Source: Candidatus Sabulitectum sp.
GTDB lineage: Bacteria; Fermentibacterota; Fermentibacteria; Fermentibacterales; JCC-6
Direction of reading: 5' to 3'
Length of the DNA stretch: 64,000 nucleotides
Assembly: GCA_023139045.1 (NCBI GenBank)
Contig: JAGLOJ010000038.1
Location: forward strand, 1 to 64,000
Positions within the stretch are counted from its first letter, which is position 1. Every line of letters starts with the position of its first letter. A program made the position numbers and the translations under genes. The notes beneath the pieces are model-generated. The model made no database searches and was not told the origin of the DNA. It was given only the letters and a program-made list of their open reading frames with translations. Of this stretch, positions 26,798 to 50,186 are shown piece by piece.

Positions 26798-28972
26798 GTG
26801 CCACAAAAAACAGACATTACACTTAACAAAGACCAACAAGAAGCAGTACAATATAATAGCGGCCATCTTCTTGTTCTTGCCGGTGCAGGAAGCGGGAAAA
26901 CCAGAGTGCTTACTGCGAAGATTGCCCGGATTATTGACACGGGCCTCGCCAAACCCTGGCAGATACTTGCCATGACATTTACAAACAAAGCAGCCGGTGA
27001 GATGCGTGAGCGGATCTATAAACAGTTGAACGACGATACTATCAGGCTTCGCATGGGCACTTTTCACAGCATCTGTGCATGGATACTGAGAAGGGAAGCC
27101 AGGGCGCTTGGTTTTCCTGAGAACTTCTCGATTTACGATGGAGATGACCAGAAAACACTAATAAGAAGAATTCTTAAAACTGCCGAACTTCCCATGAAGA
27201 TTACTCCCGGGGCGATTAAGGGATACATTTCAAATTCAAAGAATGACCTTATTACGGTGGAAGAAGCCCTTTCCAGCGCATCAACTCCTTATCAGGAATC
27301 TCTGGCTATTGTCTACCGGGACTACGATAAGGAACTGCAGAAATGTGGTGCTTTTGACTTCGACGATTTACTGACACAAGTTTTGATAGCATTGCGTCAA
27401 AATAGTGACACCGGTAAACACTACAAAAATATGTTTACAAGAATTCTTGTTGATGAGTACCAGGATACCAACAGGGTGCAGAACGAAATTCTGAAAGAGT
27501 TTACCGGAGAGAACACGGTGGTAACTGTCGTAGGTGATGATGATCAATCAATTTACGGCTGGCGTGGAGCCAGGGTAGAGAATATTCTTCAGTTCCCGCA
27601 GGAATACCCTGACGCAAAAACTGTAAGGCTGGAGACCAATTACCGTTCCACAGGGAATATTCTTCATGCAGCTTCTTCACTGGTGAAACACAACCGTAGC
27701 AGACACGGAAAAACACTCCGTCCTATTCTTGGGCCAGGTGAAAAAGTTCAGGTACGGCAGACCGTTACGCCGGATGATGAGGCACACTTCATACTGTCAA
27801 CAGCAAGAGATCTGAACAGTGACGGTACTCCATGGAATGAGATTGCAGTACTTTTCAGAACAAACGCTCAATCCCGTCCTCTTGAAACAATGTGCAGAAG
27901 GATGAGAATACCGTACGAAGTTGTCGGTACTATCAGATTCTTCGAGAGGGCTGAAATAAAAGATATTGTTTCCTATCTCAGGGTGATAGTAAACCCCGCT
28001 GATGCCGGCAGCTTCAGAAGGGTGCTGAACAAGCCCACCCGGGGTGTGGGCGCAAAGGGGCAATTGAATTTTTTTCACTGGTCGGATCAGAATGGTACCG
28101 ATGTGGTCACAACTCTTGAGAAAAGTGGCTCTGTTCCCGGTATAGCAAAAAGAGCTCAAACTGTTCTAGAGACCCTTGGCAGAAACATGCGCTCATGCAT
28201 GGACGGTGTAAACGCAGGAGACACTGCCAGCGATATTGTTGACCGGGTACTGGATTTTACAGGGCTTCTTGATCTTTATGGAACCGGTGAGGTTGCTGAC
28301 GAAACCCGCCTGGAGAACATCAGAGAATTGAGAAGTTACGCTGCCGAATATGATGGCAGAAACCCCGAAGGCGGACTGCCGGGCTTCCTTGCAGAGCAAA
28401 GCCTGCTCTCAAGCTCAGATTCATATTCCGGTGATGAGAAACTTGTACTGATGACTCTTCACAGTGCCAAGGGGCTGGAGTTCGACTGTGTTTTTGTCTC
28501 CGGTCTCGAGGAGGGGATGCTGCCTTACATCAGACCTCAGGAGTATTCGCCCAAGGATGTGGAAGAAGAAAGAAGATTGCTCTATGTTGGAATGACCCGG
28601 GCCAGAAAGAGACTTTTTCTGACATGGTGTACAAACAGGCCACGCCCGGGAAGCTTTCCCATAGGTCCCAGCCGGTTTCTGGCGGAAGTTGCCGACGATG
28701 AGAGCTACGATACTCACATGCCCCGGATCCCGGCGCAAAAGCCTTCAGCAGCCGCTGTCGATGCACCAGCGCAGTCTGCTTCAACCTACACCAGAGGTAA
28801 TCTGGTAAAACATCCCCGTTACGGTAAGGGTGTTGTGATATCAGCCAAGAGAAGGGGAAGCGAGTGGGAACTGAAGATCAATTTCGGTTTTGACGAACCC
28901 AAAACATTACTTACCGGTTATGTTCCAATACCCGTATTGAAAGAAAAAGCTCAGAGATCAGACCTGGAATAG
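26798..28972 (+). CDS. pcrA: ATP-dependent 3'-5' DNA helicase, UvrD/PcrA family
   Basis: A superfamily 1 helicase of 724 residues. Motifs in order: Q-motif LNKDQQEAVQ, Walker A LAGAGSGKTRVL, Ia MTFTNKAAGEMRERI, II ILVDEYQDTN, III VVGDDDQSIYGWRGA, IV LETNYRSTGNIL, V LMTLHSAKGLEFDCVFV, VI RRLLYVGMTRARKRLFL. The C-terminal part ends with a Tudor-like segment (VKHPRYGKGVVISA), which binds RNA polymerase in PcrA. The start is GTG 26798. It heads a tight run with three carbohydrate genes. Confidence 0.93.
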   Translation: MPQKTDITLNKDQQEAVQYNSGHLLVLAGAGSGKTRVLTAKIARIIDTGLAKPWQILAMTFTNKAAGEMRERIYKQLNDDTIRLRMGTFHSICAWILRREARALGFPENFSIYDGDDQKTLIRRILKTAELPMKITPGAIKGYISNSKNDLITVEEALSSASTPYQESLAIVYRDYDKELQKCGAFDFDDLLTQVLIALRQNSDTGKHYKNMFTRILVDEYQDTNRVQNEILKEFTGENTVVTVVGDDDQSIYGWRGARVENILQFPQEYPDAKTVRLETNYRSTGNILHAASSLVKHNRSRHGKTLRPILGPGEKVQVRQTVTPDDEAHFILSTARDLNSDGTPWNEIAVLFRTNAQSRPLETMCRRMRIPYEVVGTIRFFERAEIKDIVSYLRVIVNPADAGSFRRVLNKPTRGVGAKGQLNFFHWSDQNGTDVVTTLEKSGSVPGIAKRAQTVLETLGRNMRSCMDGVNAGDTASDIVDRVLDFTGLLDLYGTGEVADETRLENIRELRSYAAEYDGRNPEGGLPGFLAEQSLLSSSDSYSGDEKLVLMTLHSAKGLEFDCVFVSGLEEGMLPYIRPQEYSPKDVEEERRLLYVGMTRARKRLFLTWCTNRPRPGSFPIGPSRFLAEVADDESYDTHMPRIPAQKPSAAAVDAPAQSASTYTRGNLVKHPRYGKGVVISAKRRGSEWELKINFGFDEPKTLLTGYVPIPVLKEKAQRSDLE

Positions 28973-28995
28973 TGGAACAGAAAGAGAGAAACCTG

Positions 28996-29640
28996 ATGGA
29001 ACTTTATATTGATACTGCCAATGTTGACGAGATACGGGAAATCGCAGGCTGGGGTGTTCTTTCCGGCGTTACGACCAATCCAACACTTATAGCCCGTGAG
29101 GGTAGAGATTTTCTTGAAGTAATTCGAGAGATATGCGAACTGGTTGATGGTCCTGTCAGTGCTGAGGTTATCAGCGAGGATATGGATGGAATGATCAAAG
29201 AGGGCAGGAAGAAGAAGGACTGGCATGAGAATGTGATTATCAAGCTGCCTTGTACTCCTGCTGGAATAGGGGCCTGTGCTGTTCTCGAGGATGAGGGAAT
29301 TCCCTGTAATGTTACACTTGTTTTCAGCGCAGGGCAGGGCTTCCTTGCAGCCAGTGCCGGTGCCACTTTTGTAAGCCCCTTTGTCGGGAGACTTGACGAT
29401 GCCGGTACAGATGGAATGCAGGTTGTAGAAGACCTCGCTGAAATGTTTGAAACGCACGGATTCCGTACAAGAATAATTGCCGCCTCCATCAGAACACCCA
29501 ACCACATGACAGAAGCAGCCCTTGCAGGAGCTCACATTGCAACGGTTCCTTATTCCGTGATCAAAAAATCAATCCTGCATCCGCTTACCGATAAAGGACT
29601 TGACTCATTCAGAAAAGACTGGAAAGCAGCGCGGAAGTAA
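28996..29640 (+). CDS. Small transaldolase / fructose-6-phosphate aldolase family protein
   Basis: A 214-residue TalC/MipB-type TIM barrel: MELYIDTANVDEIREI, GVTTNPTLIAREG, the Lys-containing strand VIIKLPCTPAG, ASAGATFVSPFVGRLDD, and TVPYSVIKKSILHPLTDKGL. Members act either as transaldolase or as fructose-6-phosphate aldolase; the adjacent transketolase genes favour transaldolase. I start at ATG 28996, which matches family N-termini; a GTG or ATG at 28972 would overlap the helicase stop. Confidence 0.9.
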   Translation: MELYIDTANVDEIREIAGWGVLSGVTTNPTLIAREGRDFLEVIREICELVDGPVSAEVISEDMDGMIKEGRKKKDWHENVIIKLPCTPAGIGACAVLEDEGIPCNVTLVFSAGQGFLAASAGATFVSPFVGRLDDAGTDGMQVVEDLAEMFETHGFRTRIIAASIRTPNHMTEAALAGAHIATVPYSVIKKSILHPLTDKGLDSFRKDWKAARK

Positions 29641-30422
29641 TGATATCTTCGAGGGTTATCAGAGAAGACATTCTCCGGATGATACACAGCGCCGGCAGTG
29701 GTCATCCCGGTGGAAGTCTTTCTCTTGTGGAAATTCTTCTACACCTTTACTGGAAAGAAATGCGGATTGATCCGGAAAGACCGCAGTGGGAAGATCGAGA
29801 TCGCCTTGTTCTATCAAAGGGACACGGTGCCCCTGCATTGTATTCTATTCTTTCAAGGCGGGGTTATTTCCCAATTGAAAAACTTGATACCCTCAGAAAA
29901 TTCGGTTCCGGGCTTGAAGGCCACCCGCACATGCAGAGTCTTCCCGGTCTCGACTGCTCTACGGGAAGTCTCGGCCAGGGTCTGGGTATCGCAGCCGGTC
30001 TGGCTCTGGGGCTTTCGATCAGGAAAAGTTCCGCCAGAGTCTTCTGCATCCTGGGCGACGGAGAGCTTCAGGAAGGCAGTATCTGGGAATCCGCCATGTC
30101 TATACCAGCTCTGAAGCAAATGAACATTACGGTTATTGTGGATCGTAACCATGTTCAGCTGGATGACGCGGTTGACAAAGTAATACCCATTGAGCCTCTC
30201 ACATACAAGTGGAGGGCATTCGGCTGGGCAGTTGCCATCTGTAATGGTCATGACAGCGATGACATAGAAAAGGCTTTTTCAACAAAATCCGATAAGCCGC
30301 TGGTGATAATTGCTGAGACTGTAAAGGGGAAAGGTGTTTCCTTCATGGAGAATCAGGCCTTGTGGCACGGCAAGGCACCGGATGAAGATCAACTTCAGAA
30401 AGCTCTGGAGGAACTGGAATGA
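29640..30422 (+). CDS. Transketolase, N-terminal subunit
   Basis: The TPP-binding half of a split transketolase, 260 residues. Seen: SAGSGHPGGSLSLVEIL, VLSKGHGAPALYSIL, CSTGSLGQGLGIAAGLALG, and the TPP/metal motif GDGELQEGSIWESAM ending in the Asn of VDRNHVQL. The start ATG shares its A with the transaldolase stop. Split transketolases are common outside the proteobacteria. Confidence 0.95.
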   Translation: MISSRVIREDILRMIHSAGSGHPGGSLSLVEILLHLYWKEMRIDPERPQWEDRDRLVLSKGHGAPALYSILSRRGYFPIEKLDTLRKFGSGLEGHPHMQSLPGLDCSTGSLGQGLGIAAGLALGLSIRKSSARVFCILGDGELQEGSIWESAMSIPALKQMNITVIVDRNHVQLDDAVDKVIPIEPLTYKWRAFGWAVAICNGHDSDDIEKAFSTKSDKPLVIIAETVKGKGVSFMENQALWHGKAPDEDQLQKALEELE

Positions 30423-31348
30423 GGGCTACACGGGAAGGCTATGTTGAGGGTCTCCTGGATGCCGGAGAAAAAGATGAGAGAGTCGTTGTAGTTGATGGTG
30501 ATGTAAGCAGGTCGACAGGAACAACAGCATTCAAGAAGAGATTCCCGGACAGATTCTTCAACCTGGGCATTGCAGAGCAGAACATGGCTGAGTATTCCGC
30601 AGGCCTTGCTCTGGCGGGGTTCATGCCCTTTTACAGTACATATGCTGTGTTTGCTGCTGGAAGAGCCTGGGATCAGATCCGTACTTCAATCTGCAACATG
30701 AACCTTGATGTTCGCATTGGTGGAGCCCATGGTGGAACCAGTGCAGGGCCGGACGGAGCTACTCATCAGGCTCTTGAGGATATTGCAATTACAAGAGTTA
30801 TTCCCAACATGACGGTACTTGTTCCTGCTGATGCCAACCAGACCAGGCAGGCTGTTCTTTCCTCCCTGGATATTGATGGCCCGGTGTATATCAGGTACGG
30901 CAGAAATCCGGTAGCAGAGCTGTACGACAGGGATGAAACAGTTGTTCCAGGCAGGGGCAGGTTGCTCCGAGAGGGCAGACACGCTTCCATCATAGCGGTC
31001 GGAGCCATGGTAGCCATTTCAATTGAAGCGGCAAAGATGCTCTCCAGAAAAGGTATCGAGGTTTCCGTAGCTGATATGGTGAGCATTAAACCTCTTGATG
31101 TCAAGTTGATAAATTATTTGTCGGATATCACGGAACTTGTTGTAACAGCGGAGGATCATCAGATAGCAGGAGGTCTTTTTGGAGCAGTATCTGAATACAT
31201 GTCGGAAAACTGTCCCCGAAAAATCATTCCCGTTGGTGTTAACAACAGGTTCGGTTGCAGTGGTTCTCCGGAAGAGGTAATGGCCCACTGCGGTCTCACC
31301 GCTGCAATTATTGCAGGAAAGGTGGAAAAAACTTTAAAAAACAGGTAA
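30419..31348 (+). CDS. Transketolase, C-terminal subunit
   Basis: The pyrimidine-binding half plus the C-terminal domain, 309 residues. Seen: VVVDGDVSRSTGTTAF, NLGIAEQNMAEYSAGLAL with the catalytic Glu, AHGGTSAGPDGATHQALEDI, and VTAEDHQIAGGLFGAVSEYM. It overlaps the N-terminal subunit gene by four bases (ATGA), so the two chains are probably made in equal amounts. Confidence 0.95.
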   Translation: MRATREGYVEGLLDAGEKDERVVVVDGDVSRSTGTTAFKKRFPDRFFNLGIAEQNMAEYSAGLALAGFMPFYSTYAVFAAGRAWDQIRTSICNMNLDVRIGGAHGGTSAGPDGATHQALEDIAITRVIPNMTVLVPADANQTRQAVLSSLDIDGPVYIRYGRNPVAELYDRDETVVPGRGRLLREGRHASIIAVGAMVAISIEAAKMLSRKGIEVSVADMVSIKPLDVKLINYLSDITELVVTAEDHQIAGGLFGAVSEYMSENCPRKIIPVGVNNRFGCSGSPEEVMAHCGLTAAIIAGKVEKTLKNR

Positions 31349-31442
31349 ATCCATTGACTTCCGGCTGTCTGTTCAATAGCTTTCACGAGCTAGGGCTACC
31401 TTATTATCAATTAACAAAATAACCTCAAAGCGGAGGATTAAA

Positions 31443-32360
31443 GTGGCAAAGATTCTTGTTTGTGATGCAGTTGCTGATTCTGCACTTGATATGCTCAGAA
31501 ATGCAGGGCACGAAGTAACTGTAAAAACCGGTATGGACCAGGATGGTCTTCTTGAAACTGTGCCTGCTTATGACGCAATGATTGTCAGAAGCGCAACAAA
31601 GGTCAGAGTACCTGTTCTTGAGCATTGCAGGAACACCCTGAAGCTCATCGTACGCGGTGGAGTGGGTCTTGATAATATTGATGTGAAAGATGCTGAAGAG
31701 CGCGGAATCTCCGTACGCAACACACCCAGCGCCAGCTCTGTAGCGGTTGCTGAACTTGCTCTCGGGCACATGCTTGCCTGTTGTCGCTACATTCCCATCG
31801 CAGACAGAACCATGAAGCAGGGCGAATGGAACAAGAAGCAGTACGGCAAGGGTCTTGAACTCTGGCACGGAACACTTGGACTTATCGGTTTCGGTCGCAT
31901 TGCAAAAGAAGTCGCAAAACGTGCAAAAGCATTTGATATGGATGTTGTCTTTTACGATCCCTTCATCCAGGACGAAACAGTTGACGGAGCGAAAAAGGTT
32001 AACCTTGAAACTCTCTGCAAAGAGTCCACAGTTATCAGCCTGCACATCCCACACAATGATGCAACTCATTACATTCTTGACAAACCACAGTTCGACATGA
32101 TGAAAGACAATGTTATTATCGTTAACTGTGCCCGTGGCGGCACAATTAATGAAGCCGCACTGGTTGAAGCTCTTGATTCCGGCAAAGTTTTTGCAGCCGG
32201 TGTTGATGTTTACGAGAAAGAGCCTTCCACCTCTGAAAATTGCCCGCTTATAGCTCATCCCAGAGCAGTCGCCACGCCCCATATCGGTGCAGGCAGCAAG
32301 GGTGCTTCCGGAAGAGTCGGTTCAGAAGTCGCAAGCATAATTATTGATTTCTTCAAATAG
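31443..32360 (+). CDS. serA: D-3-phosphoglycerate dehydrogenase, short form
   Basis: This is a D-2-hydroxyacid dehydrogenase of 305 residues. Seen: VRSATKVRVPVLEHC, RGGVGLDNIDVKDAEERGI, NAD motif LGLIGFGRIAKEVAKRAKAF, NCARGGTINEAALVEAL with the catalytic Arg, and ATPHIGAGSKGA with the catalytic His. There is no C-terminal ACT domain, so serine feedback of the usual kind is not expected. Specificity within this superfamily is hard to fix by sequence alone. GGAGG precedes the GTG start. Confidence 0.82.
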   Translation: MAKILVCDAVADSALDMLRNAGHEVTVKTGMDQDGLLETVPAYDAMIVRSATKVRVPVLEHCRNTLKLIVRGGVGLDNIDVKDAEERGISVRNTPSASSVAVAELALGHMLACCRYIPIADRTMKQGEWNKKQYGKGLELWHGTLGLIGFGRIAKEVAKRAKAFDMDVVFYDPFIQDETVDGAKKVNLETLCKESTVISLHIPHNDATHYILDKPQFDMMKDNVIIVNCARGGTINEAALVEALDSGKVFAAGVDVYEKEPSTSENCPLIAHPRAVATPHIGAGSKGASGRVGSEVASIIIDFFK

Positions 32361-32392: not shown

Positions 32393-33712
32393 ATGCTGAG
32401 AAAGGTACCAGCGCTGCTTCTTGCACTGCTGCTGGCCACCGGTCTTGCGTGGGCACAGGCGGAGGAACCTCCTCCGACAGAGCCTGCAGACACCGGAGAA
32501 GCAGCAGAAACCGCAGAGGAAGCTGTGGTGATGGAGGAGGTGGCTGAGATAGAGTTATCAGCCCTGTCTGCCGCCGTTGGTGACGGTATGATCTCCCCCG
32601 GTGGTATTGTTGTGTCCGACTGGCCCAATGATGCCGGTGATGCCCTCTTGATTTCTTTTGAGCCGGGCAGCGAGATCGGTAACGATAACTTTGCAGGTTA
32701 TGCCATTTACCGCAGAACCCAGGGTGAGGAAGAATTAGTCCTCGTGGGAACCATGGAAACTGATGAGGGAACCTCTTTCATTGACGGTTACGACCCTGAC
32801 TTCATTGTAGAACCCGGTGTTCAGTACGAGTACCAGGTAGCTGCTGTGTATCTCAGCGGTTCTGAAGTTGCCAGTGACCTGGTCACAGCTCAAGTCACTG
32901 CAGAAGGGCAACTTTTTCACACAGGTAAGGTACGAGTTCTTGTTGGTTGTGTCCTTTTCCTTGGTCTGATTCTCTTCTACTTCCATGCCGCGCAGCGTGG
33001 AGTTGAGATGTACCTCCGGCCCATCGCCGGTATTGAGGCCATCGATGAGGCCATCGGCCGTGCTACAGAGATGGGCAAGCCAATTCTTTACGTACCCGGT
33101 CTTGGAGCCATTAGTGATGTTGCCACCATTGCCAGTATTACCATTCTCGGCCGTGTTGCCAAGAAGGTTGCTGAATACGGTACACCACTTCTTGTTCCCA
33201 ACCGTGACCCTATTGTGTACACCATAGTCGAGGAAACCGTAAAACAGGCTTACATGGAGGCAGGAAGACCTGATGCCTTCGATAAGGACAGTGTCTTCTT
33301 TCTTACACAGAGCCAGTTTGCATTTGTCGCCGGTGTTAACGGTATCATGATGCGTGAAAAACCTGCAACGAACTTCTACCTTGGATTGTTCTGGGCAGAG
33401 TCACTGATTCTTGCAGAAACAGGTTCACTTTCCGGTGCCATCCAGATCGCAGGAACAGATGCTGTTACCCAGCTTCCTTTCTTCATCACAACCTGTGATT
33501 ACACCCTGATAGGCGAGGAACTCTACGCTGCCAGTGCTTATCTTGGCCGTGAGCCCAAACAGCTTGGATCAATCAAAGGACAGGACGCCTGCAAGGGAAT
33601 AATCATGGCAGTTATTACTCTTGGTTTACTTCTTGCTCTTACGGATATAATTACCGGGACAGAAACTCTGGACTGGCTTAAGAATGTCATAACCATGCCT
33701 ATAGTGGACTAA
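32393..33712 (+). CDS. Membrane protein of an uncharacterised four-gene cassette (large subunit A)
   Basis: This 439-residue protein starts with a signal peptide (LLLALLLATGLAWA) and a Glu/Pro/Ala-rich linker. A beta-sandwich of fibronectin-III type follows (residues about 70-170, YAIYRRTQGEEELVLVGTM). A membrane helix near residue 180-200 (GCVLFLGLILFYFHAA) leads to a cytoplasmic alpha/beta domain beginning RPIAGIEAIDEAIGRATEMG. This domain ends in TDAVTQLPFFITTCDYTLIG and ELYAASAYLG, then a last helix. From memory this resembles a Pfam DUF (possibly DUF6754), not verified. It starts a run of four membrane proteins and has a paralogue at 49035-50186. Confidence 0.75.
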   Translation: MLRKVPALLLALLLATGLAWAQAEEPPPTEPADTGEAAETAEEAVVMEEVAEIELSALSAAVGDGMISPGGIVVSDWPNDAGDALLISFEPGSEIGNDNFAGYAIYRRTQGEEELVLVGTMETDEGTSFIDGYDPDFIVEPGVQYEYQVAAVYLSGSEVASDLVTAQVTAEGQLFHTGKVRVLVGCVLFLGLILFYFHAAQRGVEMYLRPIAGIEAIDEAIGRATEMGKPILYVPGLGAISDVATIASITILGRVAKKVAEYGTPLLVPNRDPIVYTIVEETVKQAYMEAGRPDAFDKDSVFFLTQSQFAFVAGVNGIMMREKPATNFYLGLFWAESLILAETGSLSGAIQIAGTDAVTQLPFFITTCDYTLIGEELYAASAYLGREPKQLGSIKGQDACKGIIMAVITLGLLLALTDIITGTETLDWLKNVITMPIVD

Positions 33713-33734
33713 CCCACCGAAAGGAGAGGACTTA

Positions 33735-34403
33735 ATGAAAAGATCGATTCCTCTTGCGATAGTCATGGTGGGCGGAATACTGTTCATGATACAGTATTTC
33801 ATTCCCCACCAGCATTCGCAGACGCTGTTTGATTACTACACTCAATGGGCACCTATCGTTGGTGCATTTGCTCTTGTTCTTGGTGTTGGAAGTCTTTACA
33901 GGCTTCACTCCCACAAGATCAAAAGGAAAGCAAAGAACTGGCAGTACAGTTATGCAGTTCTTGTGCCCCTCTTCCTGATTCCTATCTTCGCCCTAATTAT
34001 GCCAGAGAGTCTTGGCGGAGGAATTATGCAGAACATGGGGGGAGACAGAGTTACCCAGGGAGTGTTCGACTTTGCGTATTTGAATGTTCAGGTTCCTATC
34101 CAGGCCACAATGTTCAGCCTTCTGGCGTTCTACATCGCCAGTGCAGCTTTCCGTGCGTTCAGAGCCAAGTCTGCTCTTGCTTCTATTCTGCTTATTGCAG
34201 CAGTAATTGTGATGCTTGGTCAGGTACCCATTGGTGAACTTATAGGCAAGTGGTTCCCGAAAATAGGGCTCTGGATCCTCAGGTATCCAAATCTTGGCGC
34301 AAAGCGAGCCATCGCCCTTGGCGTTGGTTTCGGTATGCTTGCAACACAACTTAAAATAATCTTCGGCGTCGAGCGTAACTGGCTCGGCGGAGCCGGCAAG
34401 TAA
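33735..34403 (+). CDS. Polytopic membrane protein of the four-gene cassette (B)
   Basis: A 222-residue protein with about six hydrophobic segments and no recognised family. Notable pieces are the first helix IPLAIVMVGGILFMIQYFIP, a basic cytoplasmic loop LHSHKIKRKAKNWQYSY, and a C-terminal amphipathic stretch near WILRYPNLGAKRAIALGVG. A good Shine-Dalgarno (AAAGGAGAGG) lies 22 bases after gene A. It is probably a membrane scaffold for A and C; that is inference from synteny. Confidence 0.7.
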   Translation: MKRSIPLAIVMVGGILFMIQYFIPHQHSQTLFDYYTQWAPIVGAFALVLGVGSLYRLHSHKIKRKAKNWQYSYAVLVPLFLIPIFALIMPESLGGGIMQNMGGDRVTQGVFDFAYLNVQVPIQATMFSLLAFYIASAAFRAFRAKSALASILLIAAVIVMLGQVPIGELIGKWFPKIGLWILRYPNLGAKRAIALGVGFGMLATQLKIIFGVERNWLGGAGK

Positions 34404-34415
34404 GGGGGGGTGAAT

Positions 34416-35408
34416 ATGAACATCTGGGAAAAAATGCTGAATGTTGACAGACGGTGGATATTCCTTCTCATAGGAATTGCTTGTGTTGTTCCTTTTTTTA
34501 ATCCCCTTGGTCTGCCCATTCTGCCTTCGGCCGAAGTGATGGGCATATATGATCACATTGAAGGGCTGGGACCGGACAATGCAATCATAGTTTCTTTTGA
34601 TTTCGAACCAGGTACGGCAGCAGAAAATCAACCCATGAGTGTGGCAGCACTTCGTCATGCCTTTGCCAGGAACATTCCTGTGTACGTTACATCGTACTGG
34701 CCGCTGGGTCAGGCCATGGCCGCCATGGCCATCAGTGAACTTACTGATGAGAGTTTAGAGGATTACTTCAAGTATGTAGAATGGGAAGACTGGGCATCAA
34801 TCCGTGATCAGGGAATTGTCGACAGAGCTGGAATAGAGGAAGCATGGACCGCAGAAGGCAATACTCTTCCGGAGAATGCCCGTGGATGGGTTTTTGAGGG
34901 CAGGGATATTGCTTTCCTGGGGTATCTTCCTTACTTCCATCTGGTAATTCTGGGCATGACCAGTTCCATTGCATCACAGTTCCCAACTGATGTCAGTGGC
35001 ACACCACTTGAAGAAATGCCGATTTATCAGGATCATAAGAGCCTTAGAGATATAGATCTGGCAGTAACCAGTGCAGGTGGTAGTGCCTGTGTGTCATGGA
35101 TAACCTATGGCCGTGAGAAGATCGGCCTCCCAATCGCTTTTGGTGTAACAGCAGTTATGGCAACTGATTACTATATTTTCATACAGTCCGGACAGATCGT
35201 TGGCCAGATGGGTGGCCTCCGAGGCGCAGCCGAGTACGAAGTTCTTTTGAAGGAGAACGGATACAACAAGGGTTATGGTAAAGCATTCATTGGAATGGAT
35301 GTTCAGAACATAGCGCATCTTCTGATCATTTTCCTTGTTGTTCTTGGGAATATTGCTTTCTTCGCCGGAGGTTTCCACAAAAAGACTAAACTGAAAGGAA
35401 GGAGGTAG
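34416..35408 (+). CDS. Membrane protein of the four-gene cassette (C), distantly like A
   Basis: This 330-residue protein has an N-terminal membrane helix (WIFLLIGIACVVPFFNPLG), a soluble alpha/beta domain and a C-terminal helix (LIIFLVVLGNIAFFAGGF) with a basic tail. Segments ALRHAFARNIPVYVTSYWPLG and FGVTAVMATDYYIFIQSGQI with GGLRGAAEYE recall, in order, pieces of protein A (AIGRATEMGKPILYVPGLG and FITTCDYTLIG with AASAYLG). I infer a shared fold. ATG 34416 is preferred to GTG 34410, because the G-run at 34404-34410 is the ribosome-binding site. It lies 12 bases after B. Confidence 0.7.
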   Translation: MNIWEKMLNVDRRWIFLLIGIACVVPFFNPLGLPILPSAEVMGIYDHIEGLGPDNAIIVSFDFEPGTAAENQPMSVAALRHAFARNIPVYVTSYWPLGQAMAAMAISELTDESLEDYFKYVEWEDWASIRDQGIVDRAGIEEAWTAEGNTLPENARGWVFEGRDIAFLGYLPYFHLVILGMTSSIASQFPTDVSGTPLEEMPIYQDHKSLRDIDLAVTSAGGSACVSWITYGREKIGLPIAFGVTAVMATDYYIFIQSGQIVGQMGGLRGAAEYEVLLKENGYNKGYGKAFIGMDVQNIAHLLIIFLVVLGNIAFFAGGFHKKTKLKGRR

Positions 35409-35411
35409 ATC

Positions 35412-36047
35412 ATGACTGAGACCATTGGACTTTGGGTAGCGGCTCTTTTTACCATAGGTATCTACTCTTTCCTGTATAAGGAGAATCCTCTCTACCGACT
35501 GGCAGAGCATCTGGTTATTGGAGTATCTCTTGGGTACAACATTGCCATTACCTATACAAATGTTATTCAACCCAAGCTTCTTGACCCGATTTCTAGCGGA
35601 GAGCAGGGAGCATGGCTGCTTTTGGTACCAGCCATTCTTGGCCTCCTTTATATCACCAGATTCTTCCCCGGTGTGGGCTGGCTTTCCAGGTATCCCATGG
35701 CATTCCTCATGGGAGCTGGCATGGGTGTGGGTTTCCCGCTGTCCATGAAAGCTCAGGTCTTAAGACAGCTGGAAGCATCACTTATTCCACTGTACGAGAC
35801 AGGAATGGCCTGGGACGTGGTGATCGGTAATGTTGTAATGGTTCTGGGAACACTGGCGGCGCTTATCTACTTCTTCTTCAGCAAGCCCCACAAAGGGCTG
35901 TTCTTCGGAACAGGATCAAAGATAGGTATCTGGGTTATCATGATCGGTTTCGGAGCCACCTTCGGCTTCACCGTCATGGGTCGTATCAGCCTTCTGATCG
36001 GTCGTATCCAGTTCCTTCTGGGAGACTGGCTGCACATAATAGAGTAG
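35412..36047 (+). CDS. Polytopic membrane protein of the four-gene cassette (D)
   Basis: The 211-residue protein has about six to seven hydrophobic helices (TIGLWVAALFTIGIYSFLY at the start, IWVIMIGFGATFGFTVMG near the end). A short Arg-Tyr loop after LYITRFFPGVGWLS is shared in style with protein B. AAGGAGG lies upstream of ATG 35412, four bases after C. A strong hairpin follows the stop, so the cassette ends here. Family not recognised. Confidence 0.7.
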   Translation: MTETIGLWVAALFTIGIYSFLYKENPLYRLAEHLVIGVSLGYNIAITYTNVIQPKLLDPISSGEQGAWLLLVPAILGLLYITRFFPGVGWLSRYPMAFLMGAGMGVGFPLSMKAQVLRQLEASLIPLYETGMAWDVVIGNVVMVLGTLAALIYFFFSKPHKGLFFGTGSKIGIWVIMIGFGATFGFTVMGRISLLIGRIQFLLGDWLHIIE

Positions 36048-36067
36048 CCTGATCCATCGCAGATAAG

Positions 36068-36097
36068 CGAAGCCCCCGGCATCTGTCGGGGGCTTCG
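36068..36097 (+). terminator. Terminator after the four-gene cassette
   Basis: CGAAGCCCCCG (36068-36078) and CGGGGGCTTCG (36087-36097) form an 11-pair stem with an eight-base loop, 20 bases after the stop codon. The following sequence is not a clean U-run, but the stem is very stable. Confidence 0.65.
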
Positions 36098-36187
36098 TCG
36101 TGCATTGACCTGTCCCGAATTCAGTCTGGAACCCGCGAGAGATGCGGTACAGCAGAGGGTGAGGTTCTCCTGAAGGATTCCCTAACG

Positions 36188-36503: not shown

Positions 36504-36643
36504 ATTGCAAAGAAGCAGTCGGATGATTGTTGTAGTGTCTGTAAGCAACTATTATCGTGGGGTATGGATCGCTCTACATGTATAGCAATGGCTGTTGAAT
36601 TGTCAGATACTGGATGGTTGGATACAGGAGAGGGTATTGTACA

Positions 36644-36940
36644 ATGGACAAGGATAGGGTTATTGAAATTCTTCGGATGAATCAGCTGCTTTTGCGTCAG
36701 TTTCACGTAAGCTCTCTTTCCATTTTTGGCTCAATTGCCAGAGGAGACGCTGGGCAGAAGAGCGATATCGACATTCTGGTGGAATTTGAACCTGGTGCTA
36801 CTATTGGATTCTTTGCGTTTTCACGACTACAGAAATCACTTTCTGAACTTTTTGGTAGACCAGTTGATCTCGTAACAGCGGATGCATTGCACATGGCATT
36901 AAAGCAAAATATTCTGAAGGAAGCAATTCATGTCGTCTAG
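36644..36940 (+). CDS. mntA: MntA-type nucleotidyltransferase antitoxin
   Basis: A 98-residue minimal nucleotidyltransferase with the signature FGSIARGDAGQKSDIDILVEF (G-S-x-A-R-G-D...S-D-I-D). In characterised MntA/HepT systems this enzyme transfers AMP to a Tyr of the HepT toxin and neutralises it. GGAGAGGG precedes ATG 36644; a longer frame to 36614 adds ten residues without support. It overlaps hepT by 11 bases. Confidence 0.9.
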   Translation: MDKDRVIEILRMNQLLLRQFHVSSLSIFGSIARGDAGQKSDIDILVEFEPGATIGFFAFSRLQKSLSELFGRPVDLVTADALHMALKQNILKEAIHVV

Positions 36941-37283
36941 AAGCTGGATTTTTAGGGTTCAGGATATTCTGGATGCTATTGAAGTAGCAACAGAGTATAT
37001 CCAAGGTATGATGATTGATGATTTTGCAGGTGATCAGCGTACTATTGATGCAGTTGTACGTCGCCTCACTATCATAGGAGAAGCTTCTTCTCATATTCCA
37101 GAATTCTTGCTTCAGGAGAACCCTGATATACCTTGGATTGAGATGAGGGCACTACGCAATTTTGTGGTTCATGAGTATTTCGGAGTAAGCGTAAATATCA
37201 TTTGGAATACTGTCCAGATTGATCTTCCAACCGTTGTAGAGCCCCTGAAGAAACTTCTTGAGAAGTTCTCAGAAACCTCATAA
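36930..37283 (+). CDS. hepT: HepT-type (DUF86) RNase toxin
   Basis: A 117-residue HEPN-family protein. The catalytic R-x4-H-x-Y motif is intact in RALRNFVVHEYFG, and its Tyr is the residue modified by MntA in studied systems. The N-terminal helix pair (SSRSWIFRVQDILDAIEVATEYI) fits DUF86. Intact motifs in both genes suggest a working toxin-antitoxin pair. Confidence 0.9.
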   Translation: MSSRSWIFRVQDILDAIEVATEYIQGMMIDDFAGDQRTIDAVVRRLTIIGEASSHIPEFLLQENPDIPWIEMRALRNFVVHEYFGVSVNIIWNTVQIDLPTVVEPLKKLLEKFSETS

Positions 37284-37629: not shown

Positions 37630-37899
37630 ATGCCTGTAATATCAATGTTCTACGGAATAATTGTTCACATGTATTTTGCTGATAATCGCAGACATCGGAA
37701 ACCGCACATTCATGTTTCGTACCAGGACAAGGAAGCTGTTATCGCATTGCCGGATGGAGATCTTCTTGCAGGTTCTTTACCTTCGAACAAAATGAAGCTT
37801 CTTCAGGCATGGATTGAAATCCACAGAGATGAGTTGATTGCCGACTGGGAATTGGCCGTCAGTGGGCAGCAGCCATACAAAATAGAACCACTGAGGTGA
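37630..37899 (+). CDS. DUF4160 protein
   Basis: An 89-residue protein with the family core FYGIIVHMYFADNRRHRKPHIHVSYQDKEAVIAL (read in two parts) and the C-terminal LLQAWIEIHRDELIADWELA. DUF4160 proteins are small, carry a conserved HxxPHIHV-type motif and are typically paired with a DUF2442 gene, as here. The pair is suspected to be toxin-antitoxin-like, but to my knowledge unproven. A second, broken DUF4160 gene is at the right end of the window. Confidence 0.85.
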   Translation: MPVISMFYGIIVHMYFADNRRHRKPHIHVSYQDKEAVIALPDGDLLAGSLPSNKMKLLQAWIEIHRDELIADWELAVSGQQPYKIEPLR

Positions 37900-37903
37900 T
37901 ATT

Positions 37904-38149
37904 GTGAATCCAAGAGTTGAAAGCGTCACTGCTAAAGAGAACTATCGGCTTGTTATCGTGTTTACAAATGGTGAAAAAGCTGTTTTTGATTGCTCGTACC
38001 TTCTTGATTGTGGCGTTTTTAAAGAATTCAAGGATATTAATTATTTTAAGCAGGCGAGAGTTGAATACGGAACAGTGACATGGCCACACGAGCAGGATAT
38101 ATGCCCCGATACTCTTTATGAAGATTCCACAAGGGAAGCTCAATACTGA
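37904..38149 (+). CDS. DUF2442 protein, partner of DUF4160
   Basis: An 81-residue protein with the DUF2442 pattern: VESVTAKENYRLVIVFTNGE, KAVFDCSYLL, FKEFKDINYFKQARVEYGTV and the closing TWPHEQDICPDTLYE. GAGGTGAT precedes the GTG start at 37904, four bases after the DUF4160 stop, so the two are cotranslated. Confidence 0.87.
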   Translation: MNPRVESVTAKENYRLVIVFTNGEKAVFDCSYLLDCGVFKEFKDINYFKQARVEYGTVTWPHEQDICPDTLYEDSTREAQY

Positions 38150-49008: not shown

Positions 49009-49034
49009 TAATCACTTACTTGGGGAGGTATATC

Positions 49035-50186
49035 TTGATCACTGTCTTTATGATCTGCGCAACACTTTTCTCAACGGCGGAGATAATTTCTGTTACCAAT
49101 GCTCCTGAAGATGATGGTTCTCTGCTTCTTGTTGAGTTTGACGGTGTGATGGAAACGCCTGATAACCTGATCGGTCTGCTTGTACAGCGAAGAGAGCCCG
49201 ATTCTGAGGAAGTAATCTGGGAAACGGTCATAGCAGAGGCGCTTCCACTGGAGAGCACAGAAATCATGGACGGTTATGATCCGGATTATCCAATATCTCC
49301 TATGACCTCATACCAGTACAGAACTGTTGTTCTTACAGCTGATGGAGATTCTCTTCACAGTGATATCTTCACGGGTGCTGAACTGGCCAGGGGGGAGTGG
49401 TTCAGCCCGAGCGAGATGCCAACCATGATTGGTAGTGCGCTTTTTCTCGGACTGATCTTTTTCTACTTCCACAAGGCGAAAAGGGGTGCAGAATTCTACC
49501 TCCGTCCAATTGCCGGTATCGAAGCTATTGATGAGGCAATAGGCAGAGCAACAGAAATGGGAAAACCTATTCTGTATGTACCCGGGCTTTCAACTATCAG
49601 CGATGTTGCAACAATTGCGAGTATTACCATACTTGGCAGGGTAGCCAAAAAGGTGGCTGAATACGGAACTCCGCTGCTGGTTCCAAACTGTGATCCCATT
49701 GTTTTCACCGTTTGTGAAGAAACAGTTCGCCAGGGGTATCTGGAGGCAGGAAGACCGGACGCATACGATAATGACAGTGTTTTCTTTCTCACCCAGAGCC
49801 AGTTCGCCTATGTGGCCGGTGTGAACGGAATCATGATGCGTGAAAAACCGGCAACAAACTTTTATCTGGGAATGTTCTGGGCAGAATCTTTGATTCTGGC
49901 TGAGACAGGTGCGCTGTCAGGGGCTATCCAGATCGCAGGTACTGATGCTGTTACTCAGCTTCCATTCTTCATAACAACCTGTGATTACACACTGATCGGT
50001 GAAGAACTCTATGCTGCAAGTGCTTACCTGGGCCGTGAGCCAAAGCAGCTTGGATCCATCAAAGGGCAGGATTCGTGCAAAGCTGTTATGATGAGTTTCA
50101 TTGCGCTGGGTATAGTTCTGAGCATTATCTATGCCATCACAGGGAATGAATCAGTGATGTTTCTTAGCCGCTTTATAAGTCTGTAA
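49035..50186 (+). CDS. Paralogue of cassette protein A (stand-alone)
   Basis: The protein has 383 residues: signal peptide (ITVFMICATLFSTA), a short fibronectin-III-like domain, a membrane helix (MIGSALFLGLIFFYFHKA), and a cytoplasmic alpha/beta domain about 90 percent identical by eye to that of the 32393 protein. The N-terminal half is strongly diverged and lacks the Glu/Pro-rich linker. I start at TTG 49035, seven bases after GGGGAGG; TTG 49020 would precede that site. No B, C or D partner is nearby; two acetyltransferase genes follow directly. Confidence 0.72.
   Translation: MITVFMICATLFSTAEIISVTNAPEDDGSLLLVEFDGVMETPDNLIGLLVQRREPDSEEVIWETVIAEALPLESTEIMDGYDPDYPISPMTSYQYRTVVLTADGDSLHSDIFTGAELARGEWFSPSEMPTMIGSALFLGLIFFYFHKAKRGAEFYLRPIAGIEAIDEAIGRATEMGKPILYVPGLSTISDVATIASITILGRVAKKVAEYGTPLLVPNCDPIVFTVCEETVRQGYLEAGRPDAYDNDSVFFLTQSQFAYVAGVNGIMMREKPATNFYLGMFWAESLILAETGALSGAIQIAGTDAVTQLPFFITTCDYTLIGEELYAASAYLGREPKQLGSIKGQDSCKAVMMSFIALGIVLSIIYAITGNESVMFLSRFISL

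Follow-up and report, generated by a model that had tools for sequence, protein, structure and literature searches.

The closest described counterpart of the genes considered here is a single protein family, Pfam PF20539 (DUF6754), which is without known function and whose entry, as far as seen, includes neither companion proteins nor a four-gene unit. Protein A, a full member of this family, is the first product of an A-B-C-D operon on the + strand (32393–36047) of the window, i.e., the whole stretch of 64,000 nucleotides that was analysed from contig JAGLOJ010000038.1 of a Candidatus Sabulitectum sp. assembly (GCA_023139045.1). Two further described systems come close through their gene neighbourhood. 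Cassettes of a sister form, here called type 2, share clusters with the Ton system (ExbB-ExbD-TonB) and TonB-dependent receptors in three lineages, and lie within 10 kb of it in a fourth, but none of the Ton domains occurs in A–D, and the window operon is of type 1 and lacks Ton neighbours. With the type IX secretion system, some type-2 clusters have in common cargo that ends in a type IX-like tail and a protein of the PorV family, whereas no component of that system is matched by A–D. No paper on DUF6754, PF20539, or the GWxTD proteins mentioned below was found in the open full-text literature (preprints and subscription journals lie outside this scope), and the part of the open literature covered held none on such a four-gene system. 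None of the known kinds of system that were tested accommodates the four-protein unit, which is new in this sense; the domain of A is already catalogued.

An initial annotation of the window had described four consecutive genes with 3–22 base spacing, and the gaps between the open reading frame (ORF) calls are 22, 6, and 3 bases. Conservation of synteny in relatives was a check set beforehand, and the same four genes are found in the same order across many phyla, which argues against chance. The underlying scan of GTDB contigs returned at least 576 relatives, of which the best 80 loci were kept. Among the matches listed, the nearest relatives by gene A (83–87% identity) are metagenome-assembled genomes (MAGs) of Candidatus Sabulitectum/Fermentibacteraceae, and the lineages represented in the best 80 are Fermentibacteria, Stahlbacteria/WOR-3, Latescibacterota, Edwardsbacteria, Zixiibacteriota, Poribacteria, Cloacimonadota, Coatesbacteria, Eisenbacteria, CSSED10-310, TA06, and Mcinerneyibacteriota. 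In these loci and the window together, A is directly followed by B, C, and D on the same strand for 96 of 120 A genes; eight more are truncated at a contig end, consistently with this arrangement, and the other 16 are lone A genes or divergent or broken copies, those in loci L125 and L131 being probably calling artefacts. The A-B-C-D order is the same in more than ten named lineages, with median intergenic gaps of 10.5, −1, and 1 bases, and consecutive cassettes occur as pairs in seven loci and as triplets in nine. Some places are represented repeatedly: L106 and L163 are one place, and L094/L170 and L088/L176 each belong to one genome.

DUF6754 was present in 42/42 sampled genomes of the window's own phylum (taken as Fermentibacterota from the nearest relatives), and, for the phyla of the respective MAGs, in 58/58 (Poribacteria), 40/40 (Zixiibacteriota), 56/58 (Cloacimonadota), and 36/40 (WOR-3), compared with 0/14 named control genomes. 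Because this marker gene is near-universal in five phyla, the complex likely does something basic there. Gene C follows the same distribution: it was found in 24/24 genomes tested from the own phylum, and across the 34 genomes tested for it, the two Cloacimonadota genomes without DUF6754 also lack C, while the 32 others have it. Over 96 cassettes, the pairwise distances of each protein correlate with those of the others (r 0.68–0.76), and 300 shuffles, in which copies were exchanged within multi-cassette loci, reached maxima of 0.588–0.658, in each of the six protein pairs below the observed r. A, B, C, and D thus diverge jointly, as expected of an obligate complex. Not included in the alignments are L063:14646 (divergent A) and L133:2–847 (a C gene truncated where the locus ends); for A, B, and D, the L054 copies gave way to those of the window, which they closely resemble. 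On the genomic evidence of gene order, co-divergence, and co-absence, A–D probably form one complex, in line with the annotation, which had suggested one membrane complex. The unit is further supported by a strongly diverged A'B'C'D' set at L063:14646–17730, which keeps order and layout but has lost the GRATEMG motif of A, and scores 74.8 (A'), 41.2 (D'), 25.2 (C'), and 8.8 bits (B').

The cassettes fall into two types. In a concatenated tree (FastTree, 128 cassettes, 949 columns), an edge with support 1.0 parts 50 type-2 from 78 type-1 cassettes, and the window operon is among the latter. Every one of the 21 cassettes next to Ton genes (20 distinct) belongs to type 2. Where two cassettes precede the Ton genes (L158, L159, L164, and L165), type 2 takes the Ton side and type 1 the far side, and mixed arrays run 1-2 in ten loci, 2-2-1 in seven, and 2-1 in three (with L088/L176, from one genome, counted twice). 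The window's genome itself contains three DUF6754 genes, namely that of the window operon, that of a second full A-B-C-D operon (contig C46, L034 5533–8838), and a lone A; in its type-2 paralogue operon, ExbB is located about 9 kb downstream of A.

The Ton synteny of type 2 is seen in unselected as well as selected loci. The unselected scan contains three WOR-3 loci (L105, L106, and L128) in which the cassette is followed by a DUF4388 gene, four unknown ORFs, ExbB, ExbD, ExbD, and TonB, and in L106 and L128 by a receptor-like gene past the Ton genes. Across the WOR-3 sample, ExbB (PF01618) lies within 8 kb of DUF6754 in 13/36 genomes, 11 of them with both on the same strand, where random placement gives 1.9 expected genomes and a maximum of 9 in 2000 runs. 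For the own phylum, ExbB is found 5.6–9.1 kb downstream of the A copy designated A2, on the same strand, in 23/42 genomes, against 2.4 expected and again a maximum of 9 in 2000 runs. Both counts are drawn from related genomes, and the null ignores contig ends and phylogeny. Among 30 own-phylum loci with known contig ends, the 11 without ExbB on the contig all end at most 7.7 kb downstream. Eight of the 23 own-phylum loci were laid out, and all eight read A-B-C-D, receptor, ExbB, ExbD, ExbD, TonB, in some cases with one to four small or opposite ORFs before the receptor. Of the 13 WOR-3 genomes, 12 were laid out; nine (L158–L166, with A cut off in L166) have the cassette and then ExbB-ExbD, and L167–L169 differ. 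A receptor was seen in 14 of 23 loci (20 new ones plus L105, L106, and L128), and the domains of the L150 cluster were confirmed. As L150–L169 were chosen for nearness to ExbB, their gene orders show what the link looks like but not how frequent it is. Outside these groups, Eisenbacteria-like L170 has A-B-C-D, two opposite ORFs, receptor, cargo, PorV, PorV, two opposite genes, ExbB, ExbD, ExbD, and TonB, and in L174 (Zixibacteria-type) a Ton set lies about 7 kb past D. The Zixibacteria arrays L171–L173 were considered as a further case and not counted; their gene set, which we take to be a divergent ExbB-ExbD with a probable Tol-Pal-like set, lies about 5.6 kb upstream.

The interval between D and ExbB in WOR-3 (L106:13147–15992, and the same place in L105, L128, L158, L159, and L162–L166) holds the DUF4388 protein and four conserved unknown proteins, c55–c58. 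Of these, c55 appears roadblock-like by eye, which is unconfirmed, the PDB search having given only E 0.2. Downstream of TonB in L150 (1054–7001), outside Bacteroidota, two GWxTD proteins are encoded along with a PorV-family protein (E 3.6e-66) and a cargo protein whose tail is type IX-like. The cargo tails match the C-terminal domains of PorZ and PorU weakly (E 3.5e-5 and 0.0013), far below curated cut-offs. The cargo proteins of L150, L161, and L170 are mutually related and are found near the cassette in three lineages.

As for protein A, profile, structure model, and charges agree with the annotated layout of signal peptide, Fn3-like domain, membrane helix, and cytoplasmic alpha/beta domain, and add a second transmembrane (TM) segment, the order being signal-peptide-like start, Fn3, TM1, alpha/beta domain, TM2. 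The match to PF20539 scores 385 bits (cut-off 27) and covers the whole-domain hidden Markov model. Fn3 is matched in the PDB profile search by titin Fn3 chains (E 3e-30) and by fold (VIA Z up to 12.8, root-mean-square deviation (rmsd) 2.5, 98 aligned residues); Pfam fn3 is not among the matches for A at E ≤ 1, and the fold matches of the full-length model are all taken up by the Fn3 domain. Averaged over 91 A sequences, TM1 is preceded by 0.77 and followed by 4.09 lysine plus arginine residues, and TM2 by 3.19 and 0.65, respectively, from which the DUF6754 alpha/beta domain is predicted to be cytoplasmic and Fn3 extracytoplasmic. Much longer A proteins (about 910–1160 aa), in which DUF6754 follows a very long N-terminal region, occur in L102, L104, L122, L123, L127, L116, and L129, which belong to Cloacimonadota and some other lineages; no clear Pfam domain was found in this region in the three that were scanned (L102, L116, and L129).

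Protein C is a membrane-anchored alpha/beta protein, as annotated, with one TM segment on either side of the domain. In 89 C sequences, the mean lysine plus arginine count is 3.84 at the N-terminus and 4.17 past TM2, compared with 1.63 and 2.53 on the flanks facing the domain, whose loop is acidic. These charge statistics point to an extracytoplasmic position of the C domain. A cytoplasmic assembly of A and C, as initially proposed, is contradicted by this pattern: with the A domain inside and the C domain outside, the two alpha/beta domains would be on opposite membrane faces, which suggests a membrane-spanning complex. The best fold match of C is the ACDS epsilon subunit (VIA Z 9.2, rmsd 3.1, 142 aligned residues, 6% identity). 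Foldseek gave no match to the C model at E ≤ 1e-3, a fold search against viral structures likewise none at E ≤ 1e-3, and the PDB sequence search only riboflavin kinase at E 1. In general arrangement, the C domain appears similar to DHS-like/SLOG-like and binding-protein Rossmann folds, and the likeness may be no more than that. Homology between the alpha/beta domains of A and C, an idea formed by eye, was unsupported: hhalign gave a probability of 1–3%, or 2.2% with model secondary structure, and the forward score (19.9) is close to those of reversed profiles (16.3 and 18.3).

B and D each have about six hydrophobic segments, in agreement with their description as polytopic, and conserved charged residues (Arg140, Arg191, and Arg214 in B; see the table for D). 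Profile comparison showed no homology between the two, and PDB sequence searches no match for either. The statement that no family is recognised holds for B, C, and D, which match no Pfam or NCBIfam family above cut-off, but not for A. Homology to a characterised complex was looked for in Pfam, NCBIfam, PADLOC, and by PDB sequence, and nothing was found beyond the Fn3 module. More specifically, A–D do not match MotA_ExbB (PF01618), ExbD (PF02472), or TonB_C (PF03544) at E ≤ 1, nor any type IX model of NCBIfam, PorL/M/K/N included, at E ≤ 1. PADLOC gave 0 families for all four proteins at E ≤ 0.01, leaving anti-phage defence unsupported, and an origin from a mobile element or virus was rejected, no match being present in plasmid or viral contig collections.

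Based on the predicted topology and the neighbourhood of type 2, we tentatively favour an unrecognised inner-membrane complex for envelope traffic or coupling, the type-2 sister of which partners with the Ton motor, a reading that we regard as plausible though far from secure. B and D would form the membrane core of a hetero-oligomeric complex, A would place Fn3 in the periplasm and the DUF6754 domain in the cytoplasm, C would place its alpha/beta domain in the periplasm, and the whole would handle traffic or coupling across the cell envelope. Type 2 would work with the proton-motive ExbB-ExbD-TonB motor and TonB-dependent receptors, and type 1, encoded beside type 2 in several lineages, would be a paralogue with a related job. 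A Ton-linked role in envelope transport, and the sharing of it by type 1, we infer from the neighbourhood of the sister type, and it may not carry over to type 1. Several observations weigh against this proposal. A–D have no catalytic motif or channel homology; the window operon has no ExbB on its contig; in Cloacimonadota, no ExbB was seen by eye near DUF6754 among the matches listed; and of 26 further mixed genomes, about six by eye have the pair within about 9 kb, which is not clearly above chance and includes three close pairs that look like Tol-Pal. In most type-1 loci the neighbours are all metabolic or housekeeping genes, and as these change between phyla, a fixed neighbour that would explain type 1 was rejected as functional evidence. 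A bolder version appears unlikely to us. Here the complex would be a membrane-spanning core machine of the envelope, so far unrecognised and shared by a wide range of uncultured phyla; type 2 would be coupled to ExbB-ExbD-TonB and move proteins or ligands via TonB-dependent receptors and PorV-like proteins, and type 1 would be a second, paired engine.

The same genes could instead encode a self-contained inner-membrane transporter or channel, with B and D as the pore, C as a tethered periplasmic substrate-binding domain, and the cytoplasmic domain of A as regulator; the Ton genes beside type 2 would then carry the same substrate over the outer membrane as pathway partners, and not be part of one machine. 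The conserved charged residues at membrane segments of B and D would suit such a function, as would a TonB-dependent-receptor-like gene after the two-cassette array in L088, L094, and L112, and the weak likeness of the C model to ribose/glucose binding-protein lobes among other Rossmann-like folds (VIA Z 7–8). However, the best fold matches of C are generic, with none in Foldseek at the threshold above, the cassette lacks an ATPase, phosphotransferase system, or other energising subunit, and near-universality in several phyla is unlike most single-substrate transporters, which leaves this explanation on the doubtful side. A further reading, which we consider improbable, draws an analogy to the inner-membrane components of type IX secretion and has A–D serve envelope biogenesis, quality control, or surface-protein assembly. 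The PorV-family match in L150, the PorZ/PorU-like tails with cargo homologues near the cassette in three lineages, and the order ABCD-receptor-cargo-PorV-PorV-...-ExbB-ExbD-ExbD-TonB in L170 would fit, but the tail matches fall short of curated cut-offs by far, no PorL/M/K/N or other type IX model matches A–D, and PorV with cargo was noted in some type-2 clusters only, the type-1 flanks not having been searched for them. That the four membrane proteins are unrelated and stay together through operon inheritance alone, with no physical complex, is very improbable; relatedness among the sampled genomes would fit this explanation, yet the order is constant in more than ten named lineages, tandem copies co-diverge, and A and C are co-absent.

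Coordinates of the operon and associated features in the window are collected in the following table.

Table 1. Features of the A-B-C-D operon and its lone paralogue (window coordinates; topology as predicted)
Feature	Coordinates	Strand	Description
Gene A	32393..33712	+	439 aa; PF20539 E 1.3e-115; model pLDDT 87.5; charge bias
Gene B	33735..34403	+	222 aa; polytopic, about 6 TM, N-in/C-in by charge
Gene C	34410..35408	+	332 aa; TM, alpha/beta domain of about 265 aa predicted extracytoplasmic, TM, basic C-terminus; model pLDDT 95
Gene D	35412..36047	+	211 aa; polytopic, about 6 TM; conserved E32, R191, R198
Fn3 domain of A	32573..32911	+	about residues 61–173; PDB profile and VIA fold match
DUF6754 domain of A	32903..33661	+	residues 171–423; takes in both TM segments
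Hairpin 3' of gene D	36067..36098	+	14-bp; candidate terminator or mRNA end; without T-run
Lone A paralogue (DUF6754)	49020..50186	+	without B, C, D alongside

The ribosome-binding sites annotated before each downstream gene are borne out for B and D by Shine-Dalgarno-like stretches (aaaggagagg, 33720–33729, and aggagg, 35400–35405, respectively). For C, a G-run adjoins the GTG at 34410, which makes the in-frame ATG at 34416 the likelier start. The strong terminator claimed at the operon end is backed in part: a 68-nt stretch with the hairpin has −32.7 kcal/mol and z −4.7, but the T-run is missing, and the hairpin is not among the calls of the terminator scan. Upstream, the ORF at 31443–32360, presumably 3-phosphoglycerate-dehydrogenase-like, ends 32 bases before gene A, so transcription may start further upstream. 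It is part of a closely packed group (26798–32360), which we take to comprise UvrD-like, transaldolase-like, two transketolase-half, and phosphoglycerate-dehydrogenase-like genes, and within the phylum the type-1 operon is preceded by much of this order elsewhere too. Downstream there are two pairs of small genes, presumably toxin-antitoxin-like, one nucleotidyltransferase/HEPN-like (36614–37283) and one DUF4160/DUF2442-like (37630–38149).

Three of the four proteins of this unit are without a family above cut-off, and the fourth has only a DUF number. The Ton-adjacent sister form provides a concrete handle on the role of such complexes, and on envelope transport outside the well-studied diderms.

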